This document shows, in pieces, positions 2,664 through 44,454 of a stretch of DNA of 64,000 bases. A program made the position numbers and the translations under genes. Within the stretch, counting starts at the first letter, position 1. Every line of letters begins with the position of its first letter. This DNA comes from Cymodocea nodosa (lineage: Eukaryota; Streptophyta; Magnoliopsida; Alismatales; Cymodoceaceae), in contig CM072336.1 in the NCBI GenBank assembly GCA_036874045.1, positions 23,387,501-23,451,500 of the forward strand, in the 5' to 3' direction. A model generated the notes under the pieces. The model saw only the letters and a program-made list of their open reading frames with translations, was not told where the DNA came from and ran no database searches.

Positions 2664-5600
2664 CTGATAAGATCAACAAGTTTTGTACGAGATATCTTAA
2701 ATCCAGCACTAGCCAAGGCATCAACCCTTACAGATGCTTCAACAGTTTTGTATGACTTTGTCCTACAATAATGACAGTAGATTGGTTTCAGTAAAATAGA
2801 TTGAGACTAGATAAGTAAAGAAAAATCAAAATGTTTTTTATTACTAACCTTGGTGGCTCATACTCTAGAGCAAGCAATGGTATCTCTGCACAAGATACTG
2901 TGACATTACCAACCTACAGAACACATTGAAAGAGAACCAGGACTTCAACTAAAACTATGGCAAGAACCACAATTTAGGCTTTGTATTTAAGAGAACTTAA
3001 TGCACAAAAACAACACATATGATGTTTGAAATTTGTTTGCATTGTACAATCATGACATCCAAGGGAAATATGAAAACAGTGGGCTTTCCATAATATATTT
3101 CCAACATCTCACTGATTCATCCAAAAAACTCTCAACACGGAGGCTCTAAGGATGTATTCTAGTATTCCATATTCAGAATTGTTTTCTCAACAAAGAAAAT
3201 AGTTACAAGCAACAAAAAAAGAAAGAAAAATGACATGTTAGAACTTGATTTAATCTCTAGGTAGCACCTTTTGTCCAAAGATCTTATCCCTTCAAGATAA
3301 GATCAGCCTATAACAAAATGATGTTTCTCATTGCCTACCTGCCTTTAGGTATGCTAGCTATTTTGTAATGTTTTTTTAGTATCCTTTTTGTCAATGATTG
3401 CAGTTATTTTGTTATCACATCTCTTAAGTATATTTAATTTTTAAATTGGATTGAAGTTTTGGTTATCAGGTCTTAAAGCTGAAATTATCATTAGTTGAAT
3501 GCCACTCAAATCAAATTGATGCCAAACTATGATGAGCATAACCACCACTTCGAGACTTATTCATGGACCATGATTACATTTACAAAGAAAATCATGACAT
3601 AGGATTTCTTATTAGTTTCAGTTTTAAAAAAATTTAAAAAGTACCATATTCAATATTTGAGTAAACTCCACATGTCTAAGACTAAATAAAAGAGAAAAGT
3701 TAGCGTTAGGTAGCCAAATGTAAAAGCTTATTAATCCTTCATGAACATGAATTTTAAAGATAATTTGTTAGAGTGTAACCCTCTTAGCAATGTGTTATGT
3801 TGAATCTTAGGTGTAATGAAAAGAACAAAAAAGAGAAGTGATGCACACCTTAAGTGTAACATTCTTAAATTAAGGACTTTACATTGACATCTGGATGTAG
3901 ATGAAAAAGGTGAAGGTTCTCACATCTTAAGGTGTAGGTAAAAAAGTTAATCTAGAACATCAAAATTAAGTTAACTTAGAATATAGGAACCTTGATCAGT
4001 AAGAGTATAAAATTAGTGGGTATAATGATAAGAAGGAAGATTAACATATTATGCTTATAATGGGGGGAGAAAATTCTAAGTTAATTAAGGATAGTAGTTT
4101 TAAATTGTGGTATGCTGGAAAAGATAAACATAGGAATAGATTTAGAATAATAGTTTATAAAAGTTTAAAAGACAAGGTTGTTGAGGTAATATTGATAGAA
4201 TATAGAGTTATAATGATTAAGCTTGTCATATGAAATGAGATAGTTAATATAATTTGAGCATATGTACCACAAGTAGGTTTACAAGAAATTATTAAATAAA
4301 AATTTTGGGATGATTTAGATAGTTTAAGTCATAACTTACTAGTGAAAAGTTCTTTATTGGAAGAGATTTAAATGGTCATGTTGGAGAGCAAATAGAGGAT
4401 ATAAAAGAAAACGTGAGAAATTTGGTTTTAGTAATAGAAATGAAGAAGGGAATTCAATTTTAGACTTTATTATAGCTTGCGATCCTTTAATAGGAAACAC
4501 TTACTTTAGAAAAGAGAGGAGCATTACATTTAAAAGTGGTTCAAATGTTAGTCAAATAGTTTTTTTGCTTACTTGAAAGATAGATCAAATAATGTACAAA
4601 GCTAGTAAGGTTATTCCAAAAGAAAATTCATACCAAAATTACAAAGAGAAGGATTAAAGTACATAAGAACCTAAGAATTAGGAGATGGAATCTAAAAAGG
4701 AAATTATATTTTGAGATAACTTGTTAAAAGGAGTATGGAAATTAAATAGAGAGGTAAATGAATTTTTAAAATAAAATGATTACTTGTATTAAAAAGATTG
4801 CAAAGGAAATTTTAGGAGAGTTGTAGAATAGCTCCACTAGGTAAAGAATGTTAGTGGTGGAATGAAGACATATTAAAAATAATAAAAGAAAAAGAAAAAA
4901 CAATAACAACAATCCAAGTCATAATCTCATTATGTAAAATTGGCCACATGAATATTTTTCTTTCAAGTATTTCTATTTATTGTCAAATTTTCATTTAAAT
5001 TATAGAAATTTAAATCGTTTTTTAAAATTCCTGACCAAGTAGTTTTAGGTCTAACTCCACTTCTTTTAATTTTTCTATACTAATTAGTTCTCCTCTCCTG
5101 ATTGATGCATTTCTTAGTCTTTTCAGGATATGACCAAATCATTTAAGTTGATTTTCTTTTATCTTATTTCCAATAGGTACAACTCCTACTCTATGTCTAA
5201 TAAAATTATTTTAACTTATCTCTTATAGTATTACTACTCATCTATTTAAGAATACATATCTGAGCAACATTAACTTTTTACATATACACATATTTTATAG
5301 TTTAACATTCTGAGCCATAAAGTACAATTGGGTGAATAACAGTTTTATAAAATTTTTCTTTTAATTTTAATGATATCTAGTTATCATGTAATACTTCAAA
5401 AGTATTTCTCTACTTCATCCATCCTACTTTAGTCTTATGAATAATATCTTTTATAATTTCATCATCGCTATTTATTATATATTCTAAATATTTAAAAGTC
5501 TTACTTTTATAGATCTTATGACCATCTAAGTATATACCTTTATCATTATTCTTATTTTTATTGAACCTGCATTCCATATATTTAGTTTTCGACTTATTCA

Positions 5601-8600: not shown

Positions 8601-10687
8601 CTACATAGTGGGATTATGACAGGGCTGTTGATTTTGTTGTTATTCAATGTTTTGAGTACTAGCTTTCAGAAACTCAAAAAAGTAAACATCTAAAATTTGA
8701 TACTATTCTACATGAATGCATCCAGCTCAGCAATTTTAGAAGAAAGAAAGATGTACCTTATTCAATGTTGATATCATAAAATCAATAAGCTCAGGAACAA
8801 TGAGGACTTGAGCCCCCTTTTCTCCCTAGGAAAAAGTTTAGAAGATAGGACTTCAACTTTTAATTCAAATGAGTATGAAACGTAACAAGCAATAACAGAG
8901 GAAACATTAAAAAACAATCTTGCAGTGTTTGGTAATTAGAAGCCCATTAATATGAGAACTTAACAGTTCATTAAATTTAAAAAATAAAAGAGAAGAATAC
9001 CTGCAACAATATATCACCAATCTTCTCCCTAACTATTCCTGTACTGAGAATTGAGCCAAGGAAGTCTCCATGAGAGCAAGGTCCAAAACTAAAGTTCCCT
9101 GAGATTCTGAATGATGGATGCATTTAGCCATCTTGGGTAAATCATGGACAACTCAAACACTCAAGAGAGAGAACCTCAATGCGGTAACAACATCGGGAGC
9201 TGTAGTCATGACCTCTGGATGCGCAATAGAAAGGCGGCAACGCTCAGCCTGGTAAAACACAGCATGTAACTTTATTATTGCAAACCCCAAATTCTAAACA
9301 GATAACAAGAAACAAAATGACAAAAAATACCTGTGGGTATCCACCCTGTGCTACTCCTTTAATATCAGAAAGCTTTTCCAATGTGTTCATTGCCTCCTTC
9401 AGTAACGGTGGGGTAAGGAAATCTGTGGTAATAATCTCTCTTCTTGATGAAGCCCTTCTTGCCTTATCAACATCAAAAGAGAGCAATCATACAATCAAAT
9501 AATCAACCAGGAAAGAAGAAAATTCCAATTTCTATGTGGTAATAATCTCTCTTCTTGATGAAGCCCTTCTTGCCTTATCAACATCAAAAGAGAGCAATCA
9601 TACAATCAAATAATCAACCAGGAAAGAAGAAATTTCCAATTTCTATGTGGTAATAATCTCTCTTCTTGATGAAGCCCTTCTTGCCTTATCAACATCAAAA
9701 GAGAGCAATCATACAATCAAATAATCAACCAGGAAAGAAGAAATTTCCAATTTCTATGTGGTTTGTAATAATGTCTTGTTCAATTTATTAAGAAGTAGAG
9801 ACAAACTCACAACTGAACAAATCATTTACAATGTACATAAACAAATCAGAGAAAACAACAAGCTGAGAAAGATGATGCAAGTACCAAAATAATATACAAA
9901 CGATATAACTAAATTGCATTAATATCATCCTCTTGTTGAAGCTTTTAATGCCCTCGTCAATGCTTTTTTTGAGCAGTCGTCAAAGAAAATTTGTTAAAAG
10001 GAAACAAAGTACAAACTTATCCAGAAGATAAGCGGCAATGACAACAAGCACAAAAACTACATCAGAAACACACAAGCATGGGATATCAATGCTACAAAGT
10101 TAAAACGCAAAATACAAGAAGAACTCCGATCACATTTTTCTGACTTAGGCATATTTAGTTCTCAACAAATCAGCAATTAAACTCATTTAATATGAAGGAA
10201 GACTCTGAACTAGGCAACGAAAATAGCAAATGTGCAGAAAAAAATGAAGAAGCTTCTCTTAGAACTTCCAAAATGACACAATAAAAAACCAAATAACACC
10301 TTCTTGATTTATCGAAATCCATCATGAACTGCCATAAACGAACAATTAGCAAATACCATATCCGTTATGTGCTTGACCTCCTCAACAACATCTTTCTCAT
10401 GACTCCGTTTCATGGCCTCAGCTGCCACACTACACATCCGACCTGAACAACGAAAAATAATCAATCTTTACAGGACAAACATGGTGCATGAAGTGAGGCG
10501 AGCCATGGGAATCAAGGGACAAACAAGGAGGAAGAATATCACCTGGGTATTGTTGGTGAACTATGTGCAGAGATGAGTGGTCAAGGTATCGAATTGGGAG
10601 ACGGCAATGTCGGAGGTGGTCGAGCGCGGCCGGGAGTGAAAATCGACCCACCGCCACCGCCGGGAAAGAGGAGGCGACCAGGGCCAT
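2664..10687 (-). CDS. Plastid-type S4 RNA-binding domain protein (photosystem II S4 domain protein-like), 3'-incomplete
   Basis: Eight exons splice in one frame with GT-AG borders: 10543-10687, 10357-10442, 9331-9462, 9175-9248, 9001-9106, 8757-8825, 2849-2913 and 2664-2762, giving about 258 residues. The start at 10,687 opens a GC-rich, Arg/Ser/Ala-bearing N-terminus that looks like a chloroplast transit peptide. Recognisable blocks are EEVKHITDMARRASSRRE (about 66-86), TDFLTPPLLKEA, GGYPQAERCRLSIAHPEV, CSHGDFLGSILSTGI, GAQVLIVPELIDF, EIPLLALEYEPPR, and the start of the S4 domain (VEASVRVDALASAGFKISR). This matches the plant and cyanobacterial YlmH-like family, thought to bind structured RNA and act in plastid biogenesis. 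The end of the S4 domain and the C-terminus (about 50-60 residues) would lie beyond the left edge or are lost. The 5.8-kb intron between exons 6 and 7 is filled by LINE DNA. Exon 3 has duplicated acceptors. Confidence 0.85.
4895..6948 (-). mobile_element. L1-like LINE remnant, minus strand (nested copy)
   Basis: This is a 5'-truncated LINE on the minus strand. RT palm sequence lies at 6,699-6,941 (FPINIGLHQESSLSPYLFVL; the catalytic YADD position reads FANN). After an insert, the thumb/connection segment follows at 5,410-5,643 (KFK/SKTKYMECRFNKNKN type), then the C-terminal tail down to a TTGTTGTTATTG 3' tail near 4,898-4,916. 5' truncation, a short repeat tail and insertion into the same family's reading frame are all typical of target-primed LINE insertion. 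The mutated catalytic site and stops make it inactive. Confidence 0.75.
5650..6660. mobile_element. Insert of about 1 kb inside the minus-strand LINE, possibly non-autonomous PIF-like
   Basis: This segment separates the palm and thumb parts of the minus LINE. Its right edge, read on the minus strand, is GGGTCTATTTGTGCACAT, very like the Harbinger ends at 12,592 and 51,801, and it is followed by TAA in the flank. The left end shows TTTGTGC only weakly (near 5,686-5,695) and no clean TAA duplication. The interior holds a pyrimidine-rich stretch (5,780-6,110), a GAA-repeat run (6,140-6,190) and very AT-rich DNA. The 69-codon open frame at 5,872-6,081 resembles nothing known. Confidence 0.4.
9424..9756 (-). 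repeat. Perfectly phased 111-bp tandem triplication over the exon 3 acceptor
   Basis: Three near-identical 111-bp units start at 9,424, 9,535 and 9,646. Each unit holds the first 39 bases of exon 3 of the S4 gene, its AG acceptor and about 70 bases of upstream intron. Only the unit at 9,424 continues into the rest of exon 3. In the other two, the exon part runs directly into TAG. A more diverged relative of the exon edge is visible near 9,920-9,990. Confidence 0.9.
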
Positions 10688-12941: not shown

Positions 12942-14354
12942 TTACATATTATCCCTCTCCCACATGGAATACATAATTCTTTCATGCATTACATCATCTA
13001 CTACTTTCCTTTGTTCCATGCTCAAATTAACAGAATAATGTACATTATCTTCTTCGACATTGTTAACAAATTCTTCATTTAATACAACATTTTCTTCCCA
13101 CAATTCATTTGCCAGATCTTGTAATAAGTCTTCTCGATCTGCTCTTCTAATGAAATTATGGACAAGAAAACATGCTAAAACAATTTTAACTTGTGTTTCA
13201 AATGGATATGGCATGTAACCTCGTAAAATTGCAAATCGATGCTTGATCACTCCAAATGTACGTTCTATAACATTTCTCAATTGAGAATGTCTACAATTGA
13301 AATTCTCTACTGCGTTACTTGGAACTCGATTTTGATCATATTCTGATAAATGATATCGTACACCTCGAAATGGAGAAATAAATTCCAGACGATTTGGAAA
13401 TCCTACATCTACCAAATAATACTTATCTGCACAATATACATAACATTTAGCACTTTCTATTATTTACATTTATATAAACAAATAATCTGAATGACAATAG
13501 TGTTGTCATACCAGGTGGTACTTCAAGCCCATGCGGTCGAGAAGTTGCATCTTGTAAAATCATTGCATCTGCAGTTGATCCTTCCCAACTAGCAAGTACA
13601 TACATAATTTCCATGTCAGAATTACAAGCTGCCAATACATTTTGTGTTAATTCTCTTTTTCTATTCCTGTATTTAGTAGTATCTTGTCCATAAATTGTGG
13701 CATTGACATGTGTACCATCGATAGCGCCAATGCAATCCTATATTGAGAACATATAAAAAATGTATTATTAAACATCTATGCAAAATACATTCAATAAAAT
13801 AGATGAATATAATAATATAATTCACATTTTAACTTAAAATATGGGTAGACATTTGGATCATTACGAATTCAGTTTGACGTTGAAGATGAAGGTTTTGTTA
13901 TAAGTATATCATGTAATCTTATTATAGCATTGACAACCTCATTGAAATATGTGCTAATCGTCCAAGTAGATCTCCAAAAACGCTCAGTAGTTACTTCATA
14001 TTGTTGGTTCTGACCAATTGTAACAAGAAAAATTATTAATTTCTCTTCTACAGTTATACCTCGACTATCTTGTATAACTCTTTCTCTTTTAAGCAACTCA
14101 CAAAATTCCATAAAAACAGTTTGACTCATGCAATATATTTTTCGACAATTATATGATTGGTGAGGTATTGATAAATCTAATAATGTCCTAATATATTGTT
14201 CTCCCTCCCTACTATATATTCATTCAGTAGAATTCCTTGTAATATGTATAATAATATGTGCAACTCCTCCACATGCTTGAGTAATTATGTTGCATATTTG
14301 CCTTCGTCTTTGCCTCTGTAATCGTCGTTGAGAACTTTCATCATAGTTGTCCAT
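12942..14354 (-). pseudogene. Harbinger DDE transposase (nuclease), 3 exons, disabled
   Basis: The exons fit as 13833-14354, 13512-13737 and 12942-13426, about 410 codons. Motifs are GAIDGTHV (first catalytic Asp), ASWEGSTADAMIL (second Asp), YYLVDVGFPN, RYHLSEY, and LRNVIERTFGVIKHRF, which holds the likely catalytic Glu. This order matches plant HARBI1-like nucleases. Three lesions are visible: in-frame TGA at 14,217-14,219, a second TGA at about 13,866-13,868, and loss of the exon 1 donor (TT where copy no. 2 has GT). The start at 14,354 was chosen because a basic, Gln/Arg-rich N-terminus follows. It would cut DNA at the TIRs in partnership with the MYB-like ORF. Confidence 0.85.
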
Positions 14355-14429: not shown

Positions 14430-14660
14430 ATGTTCAAACATCATAATAACAATAACAAAGTCTAACTACAAATTATTACAACATCACAATAAAATATTTT
14501 TTCAATAACAACATAACTCGAAAACATCATAATAACAACAAAGTCCAACTACAAATTATTATAACATCACAATAAAATATTTTTTCAATAACAACATAAC
14601 TCGCAAACATTATAATAACAATAAAGTCCAACTACAAATTATTACATCACAATAAAAAAG
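14430..14660. repeat. Tandem repeat of about 80 bp between the two Harbinger genes
   Basis: About three copies of a unit containing CATAATAACAACAAAGTCC, ACTACAAATTATTA and CACAATAAAATATTTTTTC are present. The same array, with four copies, occupies the same place in element no. 2 (about 53,690-53,990), so it is part of the transposon and not of the host. Confidence 0.8.
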
Positions 14661-14763
14661 GGGGATAACTATATCCACCCTTAACATCACAATAAAATGT
14701 CAAAATAGAGGTGCATATAACAAAAGGGAAAAAATCTAGAGAATGCATATAACAAATAATAAT

Positions 14764-15726: not shown

Positions 15727-16483
15727 ATTCCTGTATTATGTACATTAACAAAGCTAGAACAAGTATGAGAATATCATTTTTCCTTTTGCAAGTATATTCA
15801 ATCGTATACATAATTTTCTTACAAGTAAGAGTACATGCATTCACAATAATATAACAATGAACCAATGAAACAATGAATCAACAAATCAATCAAACAATAG
15901 AACAAAACAACAATGACACAAATACTAAAAAGGGAAATCAAATTGGATAACACCTATTATTGGATAGCATTATTGGATAAGAAGGGATGTTAACATGTTA
16001 TACAAGATTATGTAGATAAGTTTAGCAAAGAATGAAGATTGAAATGTGCTTATGAATCATCCAGTTGAAGAATAATATATAAACAGATAGATACGTGCAA
16101 TTCTTCAACCATGTAACTATTATGATCAAATAGGATCTAGAATGCACAAGGACATGAAATATATGCAATACACCACTGCAGCAACATATCAATTTCCATT
16201 GAAAATTTATTGTTGATGATTTTCAGTTAGTAATATCAGAGATCAACCTGATCCTGTTTAAAGTGCAATAATTCCGCAATGCCGTAGCAGGCGGTGACGG
16301 TTCTTCCTCTGCTCCAGGACATTGGTTCCAACCCAACATTTTTAGTTTGGATATTTTCATCTATCTGTTTAGTTTTAGATAATGTAAAACTACAAAATAT
16401 GTTAGGTTATGCAAGGCAATAACATCAAATGAGTAATTAATTCAGAAGGAGATCAGATTACCACAGAGTCATCATACGATATG
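15727..16483. other. Non-coding interior of Harbinger no. 1
   Basis: AT-rich sequence upstream of the MYB-like ORF; its promoter should lie here. A GC-richer patch at about 16,255-16,340 is open on the minus strand for about 30 codons and might be an exon fragment, but no family was recognised. The last five bases (ATATG, 16,479-16,483) are the left copy of the Athila target duplication. Confidence 0.5.
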
Positions 16484-18223
16484 TGTTTGGGTTTTCCCAG
16501 CACTACACTAGAAAAACTTGGATTTGTTACTTCTATTTTTACTTAGTTAATTTATCTTTATGCCTATTCTTTCTTTTAGAAGTAAACAAACAACATTTAA
16601 TACAATTTAGATATTAATTTACCATTGGGCGATTCCACAAATTGTAAATAACATCAATTAAGCTTTTTAATGCTAGTTAACATTGGATTTATCATTAAGC
16701 AATACTAACATTCAGATGATTCAAACAGTCACCATTAAAATCTTTAAGTTTTTTGTACGAACCAATTTCAGTAAATTGTAAAATTAAAACTAACCTAAAA
16801 CAATCATAAAACTGATACAGATAACATTAATCACGATACAACACAAACAATACAACACTCAAATACAACATACAAACAAAGATAAATTGTTTTTGGTATT
16901 TTTGTTTTGAAGTGAACATGGAAATGTGCGAAAGGAGAAATGTAAAGTAATCTCACTTGACAGTAAATACTTTCGACACTACTTGCAATGCGATTACACC
17001 ACTGAAAATTAAACCACTTACAATTCTGTCTCCTCTCCCTATAGAATCGCAAGTCCAGAATTGCAAGATGATCTCCTCTTCAGCATACAGGCATCAACCC
17101 GAAGCCAATGCTAAAAACTTTACGATCTCCTGAAATATGAGTCGGCGCTTGGTGAAAATGTCTTCTCTTCCCGCGACACGATCACTCCTCATAGTGGTTG
17201 TCAGGCACTGTGTTTGGCTCAGAATTGACCCGACATCAAGCAAGTATCCTCACAGACCTCCAATGATTGGTGATTATGGTGGTGATAACGATGGTTGGTG
17301 TGATACTTCGGAGAATCACCGATACTATCTGTAGAAAGCTCGGTGCTCCTCCTTTGTATACATTGGCCGTCCATCGATCACACTTTCTTCTTTTTTTCTT
17401 CTTTTCTTTTATATTTCTTCAGTAGTAACTGCTTCTGCTTAAATGATCGGTTGGATTTCCTTCCTTCAGATCAACGGCGATGCTTCCTTCTCCATGCACG
17501 ATTGAATTCTTACATGATACGTGCAAACGTGGTTTTTCCTTCCAATTGTCTGTTCTTGCAACCGCTACAGTGGCATTTTAGAAAATAATTATAAAATACA
17601 TGCAATAAACAAAATAAGCCGCTAACCTAACGCGTTACCTTAGTGTATATTCATGTAACTCAACGCGTACAGTTATGCTAACTTAACGAGTTATAACTTA
17701 AGTAAATCTACCAGCTCTCGACACGTGTAAGCAGCAGTTTAAACATAAAATAACATTTCGGAGAGTTACAGGTATAACTATCCGATGCTCAAATGCATTT
17801 TTGGATAGTTACAGCTAACTCACCGAAAATTCACTTAAGACATTCATTCTGGTTTCGACACGTGTACATCTAGAAATAATAAAATATTCTCTCTAAACAT
17901 AACTGTTCGGCAATTTAAACATAACTACCTGATACATATTCGGTCTGTTAAACATAATTGTCCGAATTTGTTCGGTATGTTAAACATAACTATCTGAAAT
18001 ATCAGAAAATTCGGATACTTAAGAATTTCACAGCCTGCGACTTACCGACAATTCATAAATGTACTAAATTAACATTAATTCTCCAAAATTAAGCAGATTC
18101 TTTAATTAAAGCATATAACAGTGCAATTATAACATAATGGCTTAATTCTCATATGATAAGCTAAATATTATACAATTAACCATCATTTAACCGTTAATAA
18201 TATGCACTTTTTCATTCTAAACA
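16484..18223 (-). repeat. 3' LTR of the Athila element
   Basis: This is 1,740 bp against 1,999 bp for its partner. The difference is mainly one internal loss: sequence equivalent to about 27,573-27,829 is absent, joining ATTAATTT directly to ACCATTGGGCG. A TATA box (TATAAAA on the minus strand, 17,407-17,413) marks the promoter. U3, at its right, carries two GACACGTGT sites (near 17,718 and 17,857) and palindromes of the CGGATAGTTA type. Confidence 0.93.
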
Positions 18224-18234
18224 CTTCCCCCATA
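18224..18234 (-). other. Polypurine tract of the Athila element
   Basis: Read on the minus strand this is TATGGGGGAAG, directly abutting the 3' LTR. It is the expected primer for plus-strand DNA synthesis. The same tract abuts the LTR at 62,114-62,124 in the plus-oriented relative. Confidence 0.85.
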
Positions 18235-20170
18235 CCTAAATTTTGCTAGTCCTTTAGCAAACAAAGATCTAATTAATTGGTTTTTCAAAAAGTGCTAGAA
18301 TTAATTCTTCTCATTTTGTTTTTTTTCTTCTGTTTAGAATAAACATATATTCTATATGTTTCAGTAATCAACCTGCAAAGATATTTAGAATATATGTAAA
18401 TTACATACAAAGTATATCATCTTCATATAGGTGTTAATTATATTATTGTTTGTTCTTCTTTTCATCATCTGTAATCCTGAATTTTCCAATAAGTTTTCTA
18501 GAAGAAATTTCAACAACATACGAATCAAAGTACAATCCAATTCAATCTGATTCAGACAAGTAGAATAAAGAATTGTATTTCCATTAAACAACTTCAAAAG
18601 TCAATTCCAGATTCATATTTCAGCAATTCTAGATAACAGAAAATATACTCGATTCATAAGATATCTGTATTTCACAAAACACTTGTATCTTTTTAGAACA
18701 TTATATGTTTTTCTTTTTTTTGTACTTTAAAAGTTAATTTGACAAGCTTGAATCATACAAGAGCTTTCTAATGTACCCATGTAACGAGCTTTCAGTCAAC
18801 AATCCCAGATCTGATCAGGATCTTAGGTTGCCAGATTTTCAGAGTCCTTTTTCAGGTCAACAATCCTTACATACCTATCTGCTCAAGTACAAAAGGCTCG
18901 TGATCAAACAAGTCAATAAACTCTCAAAGTTTTTTTTTTTTCTAAAAATAAATGCACACACAAAACAAAGCATTATTCACATACTGTATATGCACGTATT
19001 TCATTAATACAGATGCAGTAAAACACCAATCTCATATAATCCTACTTCTATCATTTACTAAAAATATGAATCCATAACAATAAGTTCATACTTTATCTGT
19101 AGTTTAATAAGATCTACACATAAATCATTCTACAAGTTCAATCAGTCAAAGTAAATGTATCTTTCATCATATGTGTTTCATTTAATCTAGAATTCACATC
19201 TCAGCTACTTCAGGACTTCAAATAATTTTCTGATTAAGCATTAAATATTCTGATTCCATTTTAAAATCGTAAAACTATTAAACTCATGAAATTCAGAAAA
19301 ATTATAATATACTATATCTAGATTTACATAAATAATAAATTCTATAGCATCTTCTGTAGCCTTCTAAATATAACATTCAAGCAGTTTATAAAAATTTTAC
19401 AGTCTCAATTATCGGATAGTTACAGCAAGTTCATAAAAATTTTCAATTTCCTCAAAACTTTGCAGTACCATTTTAATTCCTTTAATTAACAAACTTACAT
19501 GACTGTTACTTTAATTACCTCCCCCCCATACCTACATTTTGCATTGTCCTCAATGTAAAAGATTTGACAATAAGTACAGTAATTGTAGTAGGCATGAATA
19601 AAGTTTTGTTTGATTTAAAATTCAGGATAAGTAATTGGTTACATACCTTGTTCCATTTGTACCTATTTCTGCATATTCCGATTTTTGATTCTAAAAAACT
19701 TTTCATTCCCAAATAAATACAGAATATAAAACAAAATAACATTTAACAGATATTAATAAATCAGTGTCTTGTGTGGAACCCAGGCTTCTATGCCTTTGGT
19801 GGCTCACAAGCAACCTAGTTGGTTTCCCAGAACAAATACCAACAAACTGGATTGATATTTTGTTTTGTTTGTTTTTTTTTTATAAAATGAACATGAAAAA
19901 CTTCAAAATTTCTTTTTTTTTAAAAAAAAATAAATGCAGAATACACATGTGAAACACACAAAATCACAGCTTAAGAACATGATTGAAAAGTAAAAACAAA
20001 TGGAATAAATGTATCAGTCCAAGCAAACTTTTTAGGCATAGTTCTTCTTACTATTAATTCTGTTTTAATGCAGTTCTTGTTCCTTTTTAATTTGTAAACA
20101 TGCAATATATTATAAATTCCAAATACGAGTGTATTACCATTAATGATATGTAATGCAGAAAGGGATCCTT
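18235..20170. other. Athila 3' non-coding region with a second polypurine-like tract
   Basis: No gene is supported. 18,235-19,104 is the stretch kept as the only interior of the plus-oriented relative (61,243-62,124). A second copy of the polypurine neighbourhood occurs at about 19,520-19,555: CCCCCCATACCTACATTTTGC, against CCCCCATACCTAAATTTTGC at 18,226. The element therefore carries two such tracts about 1.3 kb apart. The open frame at 18,771-19,007 has a counterpart at 61,325-61,588, but shows no coding signature. Confidence 0.6.
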
Positions 20171-20177
20171 TTTGGTT

Positions 20178-21137
20178 CTAGGGTAATGTAGCAGTTTCTA
20201 TTTCTACATCTATTTCAATATACTCCTCTTCCCACTTCCATTCATTCATGTCTTCCATAATCCATATTTGAAATTTCATCAGTTCATCCCACCATCTTAT
20301 CAGACATAAAGTAGAATCATCTTCTTCATTATACCACATTCCTATTTGAATTCCATTAAATTCTGCAGATGGTGGTTTAGCTATTTCACTCGGTACAGGT
20401 AAAATTTCTATATAATCATCATAACTGTCTATGCTTACTATGTATAAATCAGATCCATATGCTAATGATATCTCTGTGACTAAATAGATATATCCATCAA
20501 GTATGACATGTGTTTGGTTAATTAATGATTTCTGTCCTAGATATATTATAATGTTTTCATTCCAAGATCTGTTCAGAAAATTATACACACTTAAGCGTAA
20601 ATCTTCACCCCAATTTCCTATAGGTCTCCAATAATATAATTTTTCAGAAATTGCAGAATTTTTTTCAGAAAATATTAAAGCTGACCCACAATTTACAGTT
20701 GGTGCTTCAAATCTAGTAGGTCTTCCTATATTCCATTCTTCTCCTGTTATAGGATTTCTTATCAAAATATCAGGTAATGATAAACTTGCATACCTTGGTC
20801 TCGTCTTGTATATGATTAATCATTCATCTATCCCCATAATATGACTCATTCCTTCTAATGCATTGGGTGGAATTCCAGTAGTTTCTTCCATAGCTAGATA
20901 TTCATGGGTATTTAAACTACGATTAAATGACCTCCATATGAATCCATCTCTAATCTTAGTCATTTTTGCAGCTTGTAGTCCTTGAAAATATTTTTCTTCA
21001 ATACAGTCTTTAATTTCCTTTGATACACAACACAGCCTACACAGATCTTTAGCTGACAAGTTACTTAGTATTTCCCTTAGTGCATCCAACGGTAATTGCA
21101 TTAATTCCATTTGTCGATTCAGTCTGAAGCTTTCCAT
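20178..21137 (-). pseudogene. F-box protein reading frame carried inside the Athila retrotransposon
   Basis: This is one reading frame of 319 codons, broken only by a TGA at 20,820-20,822 (codon 106). Residues about 13-50 (MQLPLDALREILSNLSAKDL, then CRLCCVSKEIKDCIE) are a good F-box, the module that docks on SKP1 in SCF ubiquitin ligases. Residues about 120-319 look like a plant F-box-associated/kelch-type region: RNPITGEEW near 126-135, followed by alternating aromatic, beta-rich segments and an acidic C-terminus. The ATG at 21,137 has a favourable context (A at -3, G at +4). A TATA box sits about 120 bp upstream. It lies between pol and the 3' LTR, same strand as pol, separate from the gag-pol frame. 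TGA could have come from CGA by deamination. Family call is firm; target and function unknown. Confidence 0.8.
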
Positions 21138-21250
21138 TCTATAAATATTTGTTGTCGGATGAAGGTTGAATCAGCTGCTTCTCCTTCCAGTTCCTCTAAC
21201 ACTTTCTCCTTTTTTTAAAAGTGCTGGTAACTCGTAAATAACATTCTGTT

Positions 21251-21263
21251 TTATATATATATT
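21251..21263 (-). promoter_or_regulatory. TATA box upstream of the F-box frame
   Basis: On the minus strand this reads TATATATATAAAAC, 115-125 bp before the F-box ATG and on the same strand. It suggests the F-box unit may have its own promoter and not depend on LTR read-through. In such AT-rich DNA a chance match is possible. Confidence 0.5.
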
Positions 21264-21419
21264 GCGCATCCATAAAGTGAATAAATCTCGTTGCAAGAAC
21301 GTGGCTTGCAACGTGCATCGTGGTTCCTATTTTTATAGGTACGTGTACCACTACTAATTTCAAATTTTGATAACCGCTAAACCGACGAAGTTTCGTTTGT
21401 GGTTAAAAGAATACCGTTC

Positions 21420-22215
21420 TACTTAATCCACGAACTAACCTCGTTGAGTTACAGATTACTCAACAGAACATAGTCAGTTACTATTGCTAACTCCATAGAC
21501 TAACTTCGTTGAGTTACTGTTGAGTTACAAATAACTCAACAGAGTGACCTTATATTATATTACTGACTTCGTGGAGTTACAGTTAACTCAACGGACTTAC
21601 TTCGTTGAGTTAACACTAGGCAACTTCTAAGTTTCACTCTCGTAAGTTTTCTATTATGTTTTTTTTTCTTTGTTTTTCATTCTGCTAACTGTAATAAAGT
21701 TAAATCTATGTCATTAATGCCTCATTTTGATTGAAATACATTTAAATCTGAACATTATATAAAGATTTAACTTGCAAGTCATTTTACGTTATGTAGAATT
21801 TACATTTTACCTTATAACATGCAGAAATTTTTAAGCAGTTATCCTGTCATTCAGCAAATTGTAAATCTGTTACATATTCATAAAGTTCCACAAATTACAT
21901 AATATTCAATAAATTTTCATTCATTTCACATCCAAATACGTATTAAAATTGCATTTGAAAAATTATATCCATTAATATGAATCAATTACATTACAAGTAC
22001 ACCATACAATTTCATATAATTTTACACAAGTAGATGAACAATACAATTTAATCTCTATGCCTAAATTCATCTACTTCCTTCTGGAGTTTTTTTAATTTTA
22101 GGTCTTAGCTACAATACTCCGTTGAGTTACAGTTAACTCAACGGAATAAGCTCGTTGACTAACTCAAGACTTAACGGAGTATGCTCGTTGAGTTAAGCGT
22201 ATCTCAACGGACTCC
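21420..22215. repeat. Cluster of short palindromes of the GTTGAGTTA...TAACTCAAC type
   Basis: Repeated inverted pairs lie at about 21,440-21,625 and 22,115-22,212. The clearest, 22,119-22,144, has perfect 11-bp arms CCGTTGAGTTA and TAACTCAACGG around CAGT. The same palindrome recurs in LTRs (27,703-27,728; 60,930-60,970) and in the relative at 45,196-45,320 and 47,277-47,350. Confidence 0.8.
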
Positions 22216-22267
22216 CCGTACAAGCAAATATAATAATAAAAATATTACAGAGAATAGTTTTCTGTTT

Positions 22268-22520
22268 TTTTACCGGTTTAACCAATACTATGGTGCGGTC
22301 ATACCTAAATATTTTTTTATTTTTCTTTCGGTTGGACCGATACTATGATTCGATAAAACCAATATTTTTTTCTAAAAATTAATATACAATTTTTTTTTGC
22401 CGGTTTAACTGATACTATGCTTCGGTCAGACCTAAATATTTTTTATTTTTCTTTCAGTTAGACCGATACTATGTTTCGGTAAAACCAATATTTTTTTCTG
22501 AAAATTAATATACAATTTTT
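22268..22520. repeat. Tandem repeat of about 125 bp, two copies
   Basis: Two copies contain CCGGTTTAAC, ATACTATG, CGGTCA.ACCTAAATATTTTT, ACCGATACTATG and TTAATATACAAT in the same order, just downstream of the pol stop. A degraded version follows pol in the relative at about 45,350-45,640, so this belongs to the retrotransposon family. Confidence 0.8.
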
Positions 22521-22645
22521 TTTAATGTTCTGGTCATACCGATGGATCCAGTCGGTTGAACCACAACTATTTTTATATTCTATATATATTTTTAATGTTT
22601 TTTTTTTTTAAACATATATATATAAACATAAAAACTGATTTATTA

Positions 22646-25600
22646 CTAAGTAAAGCTCGAGTAGTCCTCTACTCTAACTTCTTCTATACTTTCAAAGGAG
22701 CTTTTTGGTGTTTTCAGAATAGGTTTAAGTCTTTGTCTATTTACTTTAAATATATTCTGATTTTTAGGATTTTCAATTTAAATAGCTCCATAAGGATAAA
22801 CATTTCGAACTATGTAAGGTCCTGCCCATCTAGATCTTAATTTTCCTGTATGGTTATGGAGTCTAGCCATATAAAGATATACTTCTTGTCCTATTTCAAA
22901 ACTTTTAGGAATAATTTTTTTATCATGCCAGAATTTAATTTTCTCTTTTTCTCTTATAGTCTTCGAATAAGCTTCATTTCTAAATTCTTCTAATTCAATT
23001 AGTTGCATTTTCCTATTTTCAATAGCTTGATTTAAATTAGTGTTCAGAGTTTTTAATGCCCAATAAGCTTTATGTTCTATTTCAGCAAGTAAATGACAAC
23101 ATTTTCCATATACTAGCCTAAAAGGTGACATACCTAAGCTTGTTTTATAAGCAGTTCTATAAGCCCAAAGTACATCTATCAATCTATTAGCTCAATCTAT
23201 TCTAGTAGGATTTACTACTTTTTCCAAGATTAATTTAATTTGTTTGTTTGCACTTTCTACTTGTCCACTTGTTTGCGGATGATATGATGTTGCAATTTTG
23301 TGGTTTACTCCATATTTCTTCATTAAGACTTCAAAACTTCTATTACAGAAATGAGTTCCTCTATCACTGATAATAGCCTTAGGTATTCCAAATCTGGCAA
23401 ATATATTTGTTCTTATAAATTATATTACCACTTTGTTATCATTAGTTTTTGTAGTAATAGCTTCTATCCATTTAGATACATAATCCACCCCCAACAATAT
23501 GTAATTAAATTAATTAGACATAGGAAATGGACTCATAAAATCTATTCCCCACACATCAAAAATTTCAACCTCAACAATAGGATTAAGAGGCATCATATTC
23601 CTCTTTGATATTCTTCCTATTTGTTGACATCTTAAACAACTTAAGCAATATTTATGAGCATCTTTGAATAGTGCTGGCCAATAAAACCCACATTGTAGAA
23701 TTTTTGCAGCAGTTTTCCCTGAACCAAAATGTCCTCCACAAGCTTGGTCATGACAGAAAGACAATATGCTCGAATATTCAGTTTATGGAACACACCTCCT
23801 TAAAACCAGATCAGGACATTTCTTAAATAAGTAAGGGTATTCCCAATAGTAATATTTTACTCTTGAGAAAAACAATTTCTTATCATGTCTATTCCAATCC
23901 TTAGGTGTTAAACTAGTAACTAAGTAATTAACTATGTCTGCATACCAAGGCATTGTGTTGATGGTCATTAATTGTTCATTAGGAAAATTATCCTTAATTT
24001 CAATATTTGATTTTTCTATTTGTAATCTTGATAAATGATCTGCTACTACATTCTCACAACCTTTTTTATCTTTAATTTCTAAATCAAATTCTTGCAATAA
24101 TAATATCCATCGGATCAATCTAGGTTTAGTTTCTTTTTTCTTTATTAGATGTTTTAGAGCTGAATGATCCGTGTATATTATTACTTTAGCTCCAATCAGA
24201 TATGATCTAAACTTTTCTAAATCAAACACAACAGCTAATAATTCTTTTTCAGTAGTTGTGTAATTAACTTGAGCATCATTTAAGGTTTTGCTTGCCTAAT
24301 GAATCACTCTAGGAGATTTTTCTATCTTCTGTCCTAACACTGCTCCTACAGCAAAATTAGAAGCATCGCACATTAATTCAAATGGATGGTTCCAATTAGG
24401 TGCTTAAATTATAGGAGTTGAAATTAAGCTAGTCTTAAGTCTGAAAAATGCTTCCTTACAATTTTTATCTAAGTTAAATGGAACATCTTTTAATAGATTA
24501 GTTAAAGGTCTAGTTATCTTGCTAAAGTCTTTAATAAATCTTCTATAAAAACCAGCATGTCCTAGAAATGATCTAATATCTTTTAATGATTTAGGTTCTA
24601 GTAGATTAGAAATTACTTCTATTTTAGCTTTATCTACTTCCAACCCTTTTTTAGAAACAACATGCCCTAAGATTATTCCTTGTTTAACTATGAAGTGACA
24701 TTTTTCCCAATTTAAAATCAGATTTTTTTCCACACAGTGTTTTAATATTTGGTCTAAATTGCTTAAACACATTTCATATGAGTTGCCATATACAGTAAAA
24801 TCATCTATAAATATTTCTAAAAATTCTTCAGTCATTCCAGTAAATATGCCCTACACACACCTTTGAAAGTTAGCTGGCGTATTGTATAATCCGAATGTCT
24901 TTCTTTTAAAAGCATAAGTTCTATTAGGACAGGTGAAAGTTGTTTTCTCTTGATCCTCTAATGCTACTAGAATTTGATTATACCCTAAATATCCGTCTAG
25001 GAAACAAAAATTTTCTTGCCCTGCTAATCTTTCCAGCATTTGATCTATAAAAGGTAAGAGAAAATGATCTTTCCTAGTCACAGCATTCAACTTTCTATAG
25101 TCTATACATACTCTCCAACCTGATTGAATTCTAGTAGGTATCAAGTCTTGACTTTCATTCCTAATAACTGTTAATCCTGATTTCTTGGGAACTACATGGA
25201 TTGGACTAACCCACGAGCTATCAGAAATCGGATAAATTATATCATTATCTAACCATTTAACTATTTCCTTCCTGACTACTTCCCTAAGGTTTGGATTTAA
25301 TCTCCTCTCAGGAATTCTAACAGGTTTAGCATTCTCTTCTAAATATATGTGGTGACAGCATAAAGTTGAACTTAACCCTTTTATATCAGTCATAGTCCAT
25401 CTTATTGCTTCTTTATAACTTTTTACTACATCTTTTAATTTAGCTATTTGATCCTCTTTTAAATCTGAAGCAATAATGATTAGACAGGTCTGTTTATCTT
25501 CTAAAAATATATAGGTTAATTCAGGAGGTAAAGGTTTTAATTCTAAATGCTGCCCATCAAAAGCTAGAGCTCCTAATTGAACATCATCATTTTTTAAATT

Positions 25601-27316
25601 AATTTCTTCCTAATCTCCTTCTATATTTATGCTTTCACTTTCTTCTAAAGTTTCAGAATTGATTTGCCTATTTAATTCTTCTTAAATCACATCATCTAAC
25701 ATATCTCCTTCATCCTCTAAAAATTCTATGGTATGTAAGGACATTTCTAACTCCTCAAACCTTTCTCGTTTGAAAATATTTAATTGAGTATCCTCATTAC
25801 CATATGCTAACTTCATTACTCCAGTTTTACAATTTATAACAGCCCCTGATGTTGCTAAAAATGGCCTTTCCAAAATTAAAGATGTATCACTATTTTTATG
25901 CTTAATTTGTTGGGAATCCAAAATTACAATATCAATAGGATATATAAAATTCTTGATTTTAATTAAGACATCCTCTATTTTTCCTCTAGGGTATCTTATA
26001 CTTCTATCAGCTAATTGAATAACCGTACTAGTAGGAGTTAAGCCTTCTAATCCTAAGGATGCAAATATATCACTTGGCATAACATTTATACCTCCACCTA
26101 AGTCTATTAAGGTTCTTTCTAGAATGGTATTTTCTATGGTGCATGATATAACAGGGATTCCAGGATCAGATAACTTTGTAGGAATTTGTGGCAGAAATAG
26201 GGAACTACTTTGCTCAGCTAAAAAGACATTTCTAAGAACTTTTCACTCTCTTTTCTTAGTACACCAATCCTTCAGAAATTTAGCACAAGGTGGCATATGC
26301 TGCAATAGATCTAACAAAGGAATGTTAACTTGTACTTTTTCAAAAATTTCTCTGATTTTTTCTTATTTTTCAGGAATTGTTTGTTGTAATCTTTCAGGAT
26401 AGGGTGCTAAAGATTTTGATTTCAAAGACTCTTTTTCTTTTAGTTGATTTGTTTGATCATTTTTAGCTTCAATTGCAGATTCAGATTGTTCTTCAGTGAT
26501 TTTTAGATTTTCAGCTATTACATTTTCATTATCATTTTGATTTTTACACTTGTCCACCTTCATATCATTTTCATTTTGAGTTCTTGGTGGTATATCAGTT
26601 CCAAATCTTAATGTTACACATACATCTTCCAGATTTTCGTTACTTTCATGATGTTTTTGTATATCATTTTCGTGATTATGATCTTCAATTATTTTTAGTT
26701 TTAAAGTGCATTCTTTAAATTCTCTTACATTAGTGTTTTCTGTTTGTTGTATATTTTGCAAGTTGTGCAGGTTTATAACATTATAATTTTCATTGTCCTG
26801 TTGCAAAACTTGTATTTTCATTGCATTTTTGTCTAATGCTTTTAATTTTGTTTTCAGATCATCTAATTTCATTGCATTCAATTTTTGATCAATTTTCTTT
26901 ATGGCTTTTTCAGTTTCGTAAATTATATCCTATTTAGGTTCTGAATATGCCTCCTTATAGTTTAACCGGTTGACTTCTTGTTGTTGACACACAAAGTATT
27001 CCAGTTTGTCCAGATTTTGCTCTATACTATGGTCCAGTCTGTCATAGTTATCCCAAACTTCAGTGTCTCTCATCATATTACACATTCTATACTGACCATC
27101 AGTTGGGTAAACTATAGGATTCTCATACTCGGCTCTATTATATTGAGGATAATTCATTTGTTGTTCATGGGATCTAACAATCTGTAAATGTCTCAATTTC
27201 AAACAATCAAAAATCTCGTGTCCTTCAGAATTGCAGAATTCACATATGCTAATTAAAGGTTTTAGAAATATTTGAGCATAAGTATATGCTATATTCTCAA
27301 TTACAGAAGAAAACAC
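22646..27316 (-). pseudogene. Athila gag(3' part)-pol, single frame with about 13 internal stops
   Basis: One reading frame runs from 27,316 to its natural TAG at 22,646-22,648. Segments: a gag zinc knuckle CEFCNSEGHEIFDC (about 27,210-27,255); an acidic linker (26,363-26,881); protease with IDLGGGINVMP (near 26,085-26,110); RT (about 24,404-25,393) with the catalytic FIDD near 24,800-24,811; RNase H (about 23,900-24,400) with [10 protein letters not shown]; integrase (about 22,780-23,800) with an H2C2 finger, GIDFMSPFP and ISDRGTHF. All open pieces share the same frame, so lesions are stops, not indels. The N-terminal gag domain is absent: only about 90 bp separate the primer site from the first open segment. 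It cannot be autonomous. Confidence 0.9.
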
Positions 27317-27407
27317 ACAACTCTAGCTATTAAAACGAAACAACTCTAACAGTTACTTATATTAATTCAATTCAATTCAATTTACATCGACTCAATTCAA
27401 TTCAATT

Positions 27408-27424
27408 CCCCGTCAACGGCGCCA
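27408..27424 (-). other. Primer-binding site, tRNA-Asp type
   Basis: CCCCGTCAACGGCGCCA as written matches the 3' end of plant tRNA-Asp (CCCCGGCAACGGCGCCA) with one mismatch. It lies 7 bases from the LTR. This primer choice is typical of the Athila/Tat side of Ty3/Gypsy. Confidence 0.88.
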
Positions 27425-27431
27425 TAAAACT

Positions 27432-29430
27432 TGTTTGGGTTTTCCCAGCACTATACTAGAAAAACTTGGATTTGTTACTTCTATTTTTACTTAGTTAATT
27501 TATCTTTATGCCTATTCTTTCTTTTAGAAGTAAACAAACAACCTTTAATACAATTTAGATATTAATTCCAATTTGTACTTTAACTGCAAGTGCACAGTGT
27601 CTATTATATCAGTGTGCAAGTACAGGTCGATCCCACAAGGAATTGCTGACGAATTTAAGAAATGTTTGATTGTGAACAATTCAAATTTATATTCAATAAG
27701 CACTCCGTTGAGTTACAGTTAACTCAACGAACTTAGGCTAACTCAACGGACTATCCTCGTGGACTTAACTTAACTCCATGAGCCTGTCTCTTCTTTGTAA
27801 TACTATTGTTTACAGAGGAATTTGGCCAACCATTGGGCGATTCCATAGATTGTAAATAACATCAATTAAGCTTTTTAATGTTAGTTAACATTAGATTTAT
27901 CATTAAGCAATACTAACATTCAGATGATTCAAACAGTCACCATTAAAATCTTTAAGTTTTTTGTACGAACCAATTTCAATAAACTGTAAAATTAAAACTA
28001 ACATAAAACAATCATAAAACTGATACAGATAACATTAATCACGATACAAGACAAACAATACAACACTCAAATACAACATACAAACAAAGATAAATTGTTT
28101 TTGGTATTTTTGTTTTGATGTGAACATGGAAATGGGCGAAAGGTGAAATGTAAAGTAATCTCACTTGATAGTAAATACTTCCGACACTACTTGCAACGCG
28201 ATTACACCACTGAAAATTAAACCACTTACAATTCTGTCTCCTCTCCCTATAGAATCGCGAGTCCAGAATTGCAAGATGATCTCCTCTTCAGCATACAGGC
28301 ATCAACCCGAAGCCAAGGCTAAAGGCTTTACGATCTCCTGAAATATGAGTCGGTGCTTGGTGAAAATGTCTTCCCTTCCCGCGACACGATCACTCCTCAC
28401 AGTGGTTGTCAGGCACTGTGTTTGGCTCGGAATCGACCTGATATCAGGCAAGTATCCTCACAGTCCTCCGATGATTGGTGATTATGGTGGTGATAACGAT
28501 GGTTGGTGTGATACTTCGGAGAATTACCGATACTGTCTGTAGAAAGCTCGGTGCTCCTCCTCTATATACACTAGCTGTCCATCGATCACACTTTCTTCTT
28601 TTTTTCTTCTTTTCTTTTATATTTCTTCAGTAGTAACTGCTTCTGCTTGAATGATCAGTTGGATTTCCTTCCTTCAGATCAATGGCGATGCTTCCTTCTC
28701 CATGCGCGATTGAATTCTTACATGATACGTGCAAACGTGGTTTTTCCTTCCAACTGTCTGTTCTTGCAATCGCTACAGTGGCATTTTAGAAAATAACTAT
28801 AAAATGCATGCAATAAAGAAATAAGCCGCTTACCTAACGCGTTACCTTAGTGTATATTCATGTAACTCAACGCGTATAGTTATGCTAACTTAACGAGTTA
28901 TAACTTAAGTAAATCTACCAGCTCTCGACACGTGTAAGCAGCAGTTTAAACATAAAATAACATTTCGGAGAGTTACAGGTATAACTATCCGATGCTCAGA
29001 TGCATTTTCGGATAGTTACAACTAACTCACCGAAAATTCACTTAAGACATTCATTCTGGTTTCGACACGTGTACATCTAGAAATAATAAAATATTCTCTC
29101 TAAACATAACTGTTCGGCAATTTAAACATAACTATCCGATACATATTCGGTCTATTAAACATAACTGTCTGAATTTATTCGGTATGTTAAACATAACTGT
29201 CTGAAATATCAAAAAATTCGGATACTTAAGAATTTCACAGCCTGCAACTTAACGACAGTTCATAAATGTACTAAATTAACATTAATTCCCCAAAATTAAG
29301 CAGATTCTTCAATTAAAGCATATAACAGTGCAATTATAACATAATAGCTTAATTCTCATATGATAAGCTAAATATTATGCAATTAACCATCGTTTAATCG
29401 TTAATAATATGCACTTTTTCATTCTGAACA
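27432..29430 (-). repeat. 5' LTR of the Athila element
   Basis: This is the 1,999-bp full-length LTR. It retains the block 27,573-27,829 that is missing in the 3' LTR, including GTACAGGTCGATCCCACA, a block also kept in the relatives at 47,190 and about 61,035. The promoter TATAAAA (minus strand) is at 28,615-28,621, with U3 to its right and R/U5 to its left. ACGTG-containing sites lie in U3 near 28,928 and 29,065. Confidence 0.93.
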
Positions 29431-29630
29431 ATATGCGAGCAAAAAAAAATGTAAGATATGCGAGCAAGATGCATGAAGCTCATCCATGATATGGATGTAG
29501 CAGAAATCCCAATCCCCATCAGTAGAAGTGATTATAATTACAGATTCCTTATTCTCGTGAAGCCCATCCTTTCGGATTCCATGGGTCTCTCTTCTGCAAC
29601 CAAGCGTAGGTAAAGAAGCTTTTAATAATC

Positions 29631-39180: not shown

Positions 39181-39745
39181 ATTCAAAAACTTCATTCTAG
39201 ACAACTTATAGTACCTTTAGAATTTCCTTGAGCTTCCAAGTGGTGTTTGCAGTGAAAAGATGAACAAGGGGAGGATCTACATTTCAAAGTCAAGTCCTTC
39301 ATGCATTTGGGAGGCTTACTTGGAGCAATTTAAGGAAAATTTCACTTATTTTCTTCAACACCGATCACAAGAAATGGTTGAAAATGGTCGAATGGTCTTG
39401 ATCTTACCAAGTAGAGGTATCTCTGATCTAACAAGTAAAGAGGCAGGTCCCCGACATTAAGATTTTAGGAGATTCCTTCCTTGTTATGCAATCTAAGGTA
39501 CAACCCTAATACACGAGTAATATGACCATAACTTTTGTTGTGATATTTAAGGTTCATTTGTTATGAAGATCTTTACTGTTGTTGCTGTTTTGAGAAGAAA
39601 AAATTTATTATTTCTCTAGTTTAGAAAGGAAAGTCGAAACAAATAAAATAAAGAAATATCAATCGTAAATATCGAGGCATTTGGAAGTGGTTTTGGATAC
39701 GAATACTTCGATGTAATAATTCACCGGTGGGTTTTCACGAGCCTA
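39180..39745 (+). pseudogene. SABATH partial copy (exon 3 with collapsed end)
   Basis: The fragment starts in the intron 2 equivalent (ACTTCATTCTAGACAACTTATAG), passes [18 protein letters not shown] and [20 protein letters not shown], and then loses frame near the DLTSKE block. Exon 4 is nearly absent: sequence jumps to the last few codons (TTGTTGCTGTTTTGAGAAG). 39,605-39,745 is SABATH flank, also present at 43,805-43,945. Clearly a pseudogene from tandem duplication. Confidence 0.8.
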
Positions 39746-41464: not shown

Positions 41465-41788
41465 CAATTCCAAGCTCAATATTTGCTCAGCATTTGTAAG
41501 ACCCTCAATATCTAAGATTTGGGGAATAGTTTCATCTATTTCTTTCTTGAGTTCTGATTTCTTCTCCTTCTCATAATTTTCTACAATCTTTTGCATATTT
41601 TATTTAGTTCATTCATTGATATAGCAATTGATTGAGATGATTCAACATATGGTCAAGTTCTTTTCCTTGAGTTATGACTGACATTTTCACTTATATAAGG
41701 GCTTGGCATATTTTTAGCCTCTCTATTATCAAGAAATATTGGTGGAACTTGAGTATTGAATATAAGGAAGGTGTCCACAAGTCACAAT
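41465..41788 (-). pseudogene. Fragment of a Harbinger MYB-like ORF (second exon)
   Basis: The sequence parallels 14,860-15,180 and 54,120-54,430: AGACCCTCAA, TTTGGGGAATAG, TTCATTCATTGATATAGCAATTG, AAGGGCTTGG and AAGGTGTCCACA occur in the same order. It is a stranded piece between an Athila LTR and a SABATH fragment, with stops and small indels and no TIR nearby. Confidence 0.75.
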
Positions 41789-41789
41789 T

Positions 41790-42170
41790 TCATTTGTTTC
41801 CTTCAACATCGATCACAAGAAATGGTTGAGAATGGTCTTGATCTTACCAAGTAGAGGAATCTTTGATCCAACAAGTAAAGAGGCAGGCCCCTGACATTAA
41901 GATTTTGGGAGATTCCCTCCTTGTTATGTAATCTAAGGTACAACCCTAATACACGAGTAATATGACCATAACTTTTGTTGTGATATTTAAGGTTCATTTG
42001 TTATGAAGATCTTTACTGTTTTTGCTGTTTTGAGAAGAAAAATCTAGGTCATTTGATCAACCACTTCGCTTCTTTCCATTCATTTCTTTCTCTAAGATGG
42101 AATTAGGCTTCCGTTCAATGTTATCTTCTCAATTCCTTCTTTTTATGTGACCAATCTTGATGTAATTGCG
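41790..42170 (+). pseudogene. SABATH partial copy no. 3
   Basis: TTCCTTCAACATCGATCACA opens a stretch equivalent to exon 3 from FLQHRSQE onward, with a deletion after MVENG. Then comes the same shortened tail as in the 39,180 copy (AAGGTACAACCCTAATACACGA, TGCTGTTTTGAGAAG) and the gene's 3' flank. It shares the exon 4 collapse with the copy at 39,180, so these two probably descend from one defective ancestor. Confidence 0.75.
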
Positions 42171-44450: not shown

Positions 44451-44454
44451 CGTG

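Follow-up and report, generated by a model that had tools for sequence, protein, structure and literature searches.

The 64,000-nt stretch of the Cymodocea nodosa genome analysed in this work (contig CM072336.1, positions 23,387,501 to 23,451,500; hereafter the window) harbours on its minus strand a 12.9-kb Athila-like LTR element (16484-29430), which hosts a reading frame for an F-box protein. The LTRs of the element end in TG...CA and are flanked by the perfect 5-bp target-site duplication ATATG (16479-16483 and 29431-29435), in agreement with a preliminary description of the locus. The 5' LTR (27432-29430) and the 3' LTR (16484-18223) are 95.8% identical over 1,603 bp and 98.5% identical over another 136 bp (K2P 0.043). 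The 5' LTR has ~261 bp that are missing from the 3' LTR, and since two other LTRs carry ~275 bp at that place, the segment was probably lost from the 3' LTR; an insertion into the 5' LTR was rejected, the segment being part of the LTR in other copies. A primer-binding site-like sequence, TGGCGCCGTTGACGGGG, which we take to be of the tRNA-Asp type, as in Diaspora and Calypso, is located 7 nt past the 5' LTR (27408-27424), and a polypurine tract (18224-18236) adjoins the 3' LTR. The assignment to the Athila lineage is provisional and is based on the primer-binding site, the gag, the layout and general features of the lineage.

Read from the 5' end, the interior begins with a stretch encoding a CCHC zinc knuckle (26933-27322; CX2CX4HX4C in translation), which by motif is a gag remnant. 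A Pfam search returned no gag family match for this stretch and did not find the capsid part of gag in the window copy. The pol region (22778-26080) consists of several broken frames in the Gypsy order PR-RT-RH-IN; reverse transcriptase, RNase H and integrase were recognised by Pfam (RVT_1, RT_RNaseH, Integrase_H2C2), and the protease from its position and a weak match only. It is followed by a tail (22601-22777) common to an F-box-less relative in the same window (45661-45824), by a leader module (21138-22600), which in six copies without pol lies 50-70 bp past the primer-binding site, and finally by the F-box frame.

In relatives with an open frame the F-box gene comprises 388 codons, corresponding to 19974-21137 of the window. 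Comparison of copies divides it into exon 1 (21120-21137), made up of six codons and adjoined by GTATGT in copies with an intron, and exon 2 (19974-21119), with 382 codons in open copies; at the junction between the two (21119-21120) the intron is exactly missing here, as both copy comparison and junction counts indicate. The F-box domain itself occupies residues 13-50 (20988-21101, also placed within 20820-21137; PF00646, E 1.8e-11). The position of the frame, which had been placed at 20178-21137 between pol and the 3' LTR and on the strand of pol, was confirmed. Its description as 319 codons with a single lesion was not: codons 106 and 320 of the window copy are both premature stops, the second of which had been taken as the end of the frame. 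Nor was a promoter for the frame supported. The AT-rich stretch near 21240-21260, formerly read as a TATA box of its own, sits in the leader that follows the primer-binding site in pol-less copies, and the 120-bp bin containing it shows no excess of conservation over the neighbouring bins (5.5% mismatch versus 4.8% and 3.3%, 20 copies).

The F-box domain scored above the curated cut-off in the window piece and in all three copies scored with cut-offs, and PF00646 was matched in 10 of 10 family members. According to Pfam, the product of this third ORF is an F-box protein, not an env-like membrane protein, and it would be expected to bind SKP1. An FBA_1 match appeared in four of the 10 members (best E 0.017) and was below cut-off in the two with scores shown; no confident domain was detected by Pfam in the C-terminal part of any of the 10. 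Single-sequence folding of this part gave an unusable model (pLDDT 33), and the best F-box entry in a profile search of the PDB had an E-value of 0.89. The observation as a whole goes beyond chance, as judged from the Pfam score and from thousands of first-look candidates genome-wide.

Several other features were observed in the window. On the plus strand, a deleted copy of the family (59455-63904) retains only 0.9 kb of the F-box-to-LTR stretch, enclosed by two LTRs. A motif of ~45 nt that is palindromic in part (ACTCAACGAACTT and its complement) was encountered repeatedly, in the LTR, the leader, the gag intron and a second element (window 21569-21613, 27568-27828 and 60879-60968; about 4423-4468 in copy L024) and is possibly an RNA structure or packaging signal. 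A transposase piece on the minus strand (12942-14129; DDE_Tnp_4, E 1.5e-10), presumably of PIF/Harbinger, has an 83-bp tandem repeat nearby (14442-14690), and three near-identical tandem copies spaced by 111 bp lie at 9424-9762.

To place the window copy among its relatives, the host genome (374.6 Mb, 28 contigs) was searched at the DNA level. This gave 3,717 first-look candidates, of which 40 were scored and, the window's own apart, all proved 97-98% identical; two further genome searches yielded 4,714 and 4,220 candidates, with 150 scored in each. Twenty copies among the 40 best DNA matches were fetched with their flanks. In all of them the F-box is followed, in the same orientation, by the same ~1.9-kb stretch, which is internally deleted in one copy, and then by the 3' LTR. 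The proposal that the same F-box occurs at the same place in many copies is thus borne out, and a frame unique to the window copy is rejected by these 20 copies and the thousands of first-look candidates. Separate insertion boundaries of the F-box segment were not found either: apart from the gag intron described below, the flanks continue from the F-box in 20 of 20 copies.

A more divergent set of 20 loci was drawn, with long open frames favoured, from 150 scored PF00646 matches. Nineteen belong to the F-box element family (76.5-96.8% DNA identity over the longest match), three of these being truncated or rearranged. The remaining locus, L050, is an F-box gene with kelch-type matches and no match to the family; profile comparison of the family protein with this ordinary F-box gene gave a probability of 1.9%. 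The family LTR was present downstream in all five divergent copies tested, beginning, as in the window, ~2.9-3.0 kb past the start of exon 2 in four of them. In L049, the copy with the most divergent F-box, the LTR is nearer and 69% identical, and there is a leader at 72% identity as well as a gag intron at 84%; the leader was also found in the divergent copy L055. The copy sets are biased toward good F-box matches and long frames. The gag intron of L049 was also seen to contain a young-family LTR (L069 1691-3702), with gag intron on either side.

The fetched copies differ within the F-box gene. In seven of the 20 the sequence ATGGAAAGCTTCAGACTG (a single copy departs from it by one base) adjoins GTATGT, with TTTTACAG and exon 2 further on; the distance between donor and acceptor is 1.54-1.55 kb, except in two shortened copies, where it is 0.68 and 0.36 kb. 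The acceptor reads TTTTATAG in one of the seven and has lost its AG in two. In the other 13, as in the window copy, the exons are fused exactly, with no bases gained or missing. Translation of the insert revealed a Ty3/Gypsy gag in L024 (PF03732, Retrotrans_gag, E 4.2e-19) and gag pieces in L019 as well (E 5e-9), and stop-free frames of more than 400 codons occur among 150 scored gag relatives. An ordinary captured host intron was therefore rejected. The preliminary description had asked about introns of the closest host gene; an intron is indeed present in other copies and absent here, yet it holds the gag of the element. In the unspliced reading, the ATG of exon 1 opens a 9-codon uORF ahead of gag. 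The zinc knuckle was not seen in the F-box-intron gag (L024 3063-4345), and a CCHC knuckle lies behind the 5' LTR in the pol-bearing window copy; the functions of gag may thus be divided over these two halves.

Genome-wide, 1,003 exact donor junctions (unspliced), 413 exact acceptors and 72 exact spliced junctions were counted, looser patterns giving 713 acceptors and 97 spliced junctions; all reversed-pattern controls gave 0. Judged from these counts, most copies have a GT-AG intron of ~1.55 kb that interrupts the frame, and since the looser patterns stand at 713 acceptors to 97 spliced junctions, the spliced share is, very roughly, 12%. On contig C1, 11 exact donor-acceptor pairs spaced by 1,548-1,573 were found (from 74 donors and 29 acceptors), and 14 of 20 scored gag matches had an exact donor and/or acceptor where expected. 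The acceptor AG is missing in L022, L027 and L067 and, by eye, also in L049 and L054; in the divergent set it is kept in 13 of the 15 loci judged (four of the 19 were not judged by the script). For older copies, in which exon 1 itself was not seen, splicing of an 18-nt exon 1 to the first AG would shift the F-box ATG out of frame, and use of a second AG 11 nt further on would keep it in frame; alternatively, translation may start at the F-box ATG. The exon of six codons may therefore be of importance to the young clade alone.

The copies also differ in whether they carry pol. Six of the 20 lack it by one common junction, for which 76 exact matches exist genome-wide, and keep the F-box; their order is LTR, primer-binding site, 50-70 bp, leader module and exon 1, after which four copies have gag (shortened in one) ahead of the F-box and two have the F-box with no gag. 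One of these, L026, has neither gag nor pol, an open F-box frame and the perfect target-site duplication GTGAA. In a seventh copy, L009, no pol was found within the stretch fetched. The window copy and the other 13 have integrase sequence ahead of the leader module, and pol is usually joined to the leader at one A-rich point, a pattern matched 37 times genome-wide; L017 stands out by a more divergent pol part (88-89%). Another Athila relative on the minus strand of the window (39736-48393), older by its LTR pair (89.5% over 1,033 bp), has an integrase 88% identical to that of the first, and the close similarity ends near the junction of pol with the F-box module; past this point only short weak matches were found, and no F-box or F-box remnants were detected in this second element. 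This pattern fits a recombinational origin of the window copy, in which the pol of an F-box-less family would have been joined to a gag-F-box family. Capsid sequence was not found in the two pol-bearing copies whose 5' ends were examined (the window copy and L021, the latter via L076). In L021, a pol-bearing copy with an open F-box, the 5' LTR runs directly into the pre-protease region (L076 2455), and the primer-binding site and leader were not found. The LTRs of the window copy and of the six pol-less copies diverge by 0.042-0.049 (K2P), which at substitution rates usual for plants corresponds to ~1.6-3.5 million years. Recombination with pol-bearing families has been described as a source of new lineages in the passages available on Arabidopsis Athila (PMC2410132).

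The structure outlined above is best explained, with a probability of about 0.75, by an Athila-like lineage whose third gene, in the position taken by env-like genes in relatives, is an F-box gene, spliced over gag and yielding an SCF adaptor; the architecture in this explanation is highly probable, and a benefit of the F-box to the element is favoured with less assurance. The earlier picture of captured cargo with a promoter of its own gives way to a third gene spliced over gag, because the intron of other copies holds gag; the gene would presumably have been acquired from the host. Genomic RNA would start at the 5' LTR and in its unspliced form encode Gag. Splicing from the leader donor, past an ATG and five codons, to the acceptor just ahead of the F-box exon would remove gag and produce an mRNA for the 388-residue F-box protein, much as a retroviral env mRNA is made; ALV-type retroviruses likewise join six gag codons to env by splicing. 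Precise intron loss at GT-AG sites is consistent with the reverse transcription of such spliced RNAs, some of which would have given rise to copies like that of the window, where exon 1 is fused exactly to exon 2 as expected from this route. The traces of splicing left in the DNA suggest that the F-box gene was expressed like a retroviral envelope gene, and the element may be using it for its own ends.

Selection on the frame bears on this last point. Among close copies the ratios are near-neutral, the differences are mostly C-T and G-A, and synonymous changes are slightly above expectation among shared changes. Divergent copies gave raw dN/dS values of 0.26-0.67. The raw NG86 ratio outside the F-box domain averaged 0.41 in the true frame, versus 0.53 and 0.68 in the wrong frames, and since raw values thus flattered the claim, we relied on a composition-matched null in which the same changes were relocated at random. 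Against this null, N/S was 0.52 of expectation (p 0.003) for changes common to at least three of 14 deep copies, 0.64 across eight near-independent pairs (no p computed) and 0.80 (p 0.17) for singleton changes. The frame is hence under moderate purifying selection in its deep changes, which becomes clear only by comparison with the null, in line with the dN/dS below 1 proposed earlier as a check, and near-neutral at the tips. Stops numbered 14 versus 41 under the null, which counts for little because open frames had been favoured; similarly, no weight was given to the lack of F-box indels among the 20 copies fetched first, these having been picked among the best F-box matches. Exon 2 is free of stops and gaps in 12 of 41 aligned copies. 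In one matched pair N/S was 0.46 for gag, 0.60 for the F-box frame and 0.63 for that frame outside the F-box domain; selection on the F-box was thus somewhat weaker than on gag while it travelled with the element.

The neutral decay of recent copies is also what would be seen if the F-box gene had been caught once and multiplied with the Athila lineage as a useless passenger, its constraint being a relic of its past as a host gene. The pol-less carriers show that spread without a pol of one's own is possible, and fixed extra domains were called rare in the passages available from a screen of 121 angiosperms (PMC9289625). Against such a passenger stands the constraint on the deep common changes, together with the divergent copies, which lie beside the family LTR in five of five cases, two of them also having the leader and one having gag. 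Since these copies already adjoin the family LTR, the deep changes must have arisen mostly inside the element. Furthermore, the constraint is close to that of gag in the matched pair, and the acceptor AG has been retained in most of the divergent loci judged. A passenger is therefore the lesser explanation, with a real but minor chance of being correct. It is considerably more improbable that the F-box copies have been domesticated and serve the host, with selection acting at the host level. Contexts were checked for 25 copies, which leaves room for a copy outside LTRs; however, every context tested was an element (20 of 20 fetched copies and five of five divergent ones), and the comparisons that reveal constraint are between copies of the element, the majority of them with stops or gaps.

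The history of the intron was followed in a quick tree of 52 exon-2 sequences, 22 labelled as having the intron and 30 as fused, some of the labels having been taken from the sequence just upstream. The 12 deepest rows are all labelled intron, and the fused copies are scattered over the young part in several positions. Parsimony requires no fewer than 11 changes of state, at least three being forced by well-supported branches, and a single clade of spliced copies was rejected (AU p 8e-34). The proportion of fused rows is uninformative, because most of them were chosen by matches rewarding exon 1. The spliced state could also have been passed on by template switching, with no need for splicing to recur. 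An unsplit ancestral frame, into which gag was inserted later, might be read from the 13 of 20 unsplit copies near the clade of the window and from the 20 of 20 in a set chosen by a match including exon 1, but the deepest rows carry the intron, unsplit copies occur only in the young part and there in several places, and the boundaries coincide with GT-AG splice sites; this order of events is very improbable. Even less can be said for repeated independent capture of related host F-box genes by Athila elements: such genes are numerous in plants, but the copies form one nested tree, and the family LTR accompanies all five divergent copies and is least alike (69%) where the F-box is most divergent, on which grounds repeated capture was rejected.

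As to what a third gene spliced over gag might do, its most likely role is that of an adaptor by which the SCF ligases of the host would be directed to remove or alter some host protein unfavourable to the element, in the simplest case a silencing or defence protein. Silencing as the actual target is doubtful at present. In a fuller and equally tentative version, drawn by analogy, env would have been replaced by a host-derived F-box gene, spliced over gag and acting in counter-defence through SCF against a silencing or restriction protein, as a transposon parallel to the polerovirus P0. The gag-F-box elements would then be helpers providing Gag and the F-box factor, with pol supplied by recombinant or separate families.

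Third genes reached by splicing have precedents, and Bagy-2 reportedly splices out gag-pol. In the accounts available, Bagy-2 and the env-class Athila elements (Vicient et al. 2001, via PMC7264820) have, like the element described here, a sense third ORF between pol and the 3' LTR, and splicing is reported for Bagy-2 (PMC7264820); their product, however, is env-like, whereas the present family encodes an F-box protein, and its intron, where inspected, has gag but no pol. Pol-less Athila elements of Arabidopsis (Marco and Marin 2008, PMC2410132) likewise are described as combining gag with a third gene under purifying selection, but that gene is env, and the passages of that study on Arabidopsis Athila contain no mention of reverse-transcribed spliced copies. 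A host-type domain fixed as an additional ORF is described, as here, in orchid Gypsy elements; the domain there is an AlkB-type RNA demethylase, for which a part in the control of the element by its host has been proposed (PMC9289625). The same screen of 121 angiosperms, as far as its passages go, lists 15 extra domains in LTR elements (PMC9289625), and its main text has no occurrence of "F-box". The F-box "LTR-gene" TaChr6G576 of Thlaspi arvense is presented as a duplicated gene inside an LTR element (PMC8764390), and pepper NLRs (86-123 per genome) are reported inside LTR elements, many without gag-pol (PMC5664825); in the parts of both papers available these are cases of gene duplication by LTR elements, with no lineage-inherited spliced third gene described. 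Among viruses, polerovirus P0 is reported to destabilise AGO1 and nanovirus Clink to bind SKP1 and the retinoblastoma-related protein (PMC3588083); as parasite F-box proteins that recruit SCF parts, they resemble the predicted protein of the element by class of function. No F-box gene was named for an Athila-type element in the titles and abstract beginnings searched, which were those of open-access journal papers. What is known, then, is the Athila-type element with a spliced third gene; what appears to be new is that this gene is F-box instead of env.

Extra genes of plant LTR elements are mostly of unknown function, and because the one found here belongs to a recognised biochemical class, its partner and target are open to direct search. 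In addition, about a hundred spliced and about a thousand unspliced junctions document, in naturally occurring copies, how the RNA of a plant retroelement is spliced, packaged and reverse-transcribed. For annotation, the finding is a warning that many F-box matches in such a genome may be transposon-derived. Should the F-box protein counter host control, transposons, like plant viruses, would turn SCF ligases on their hosts.
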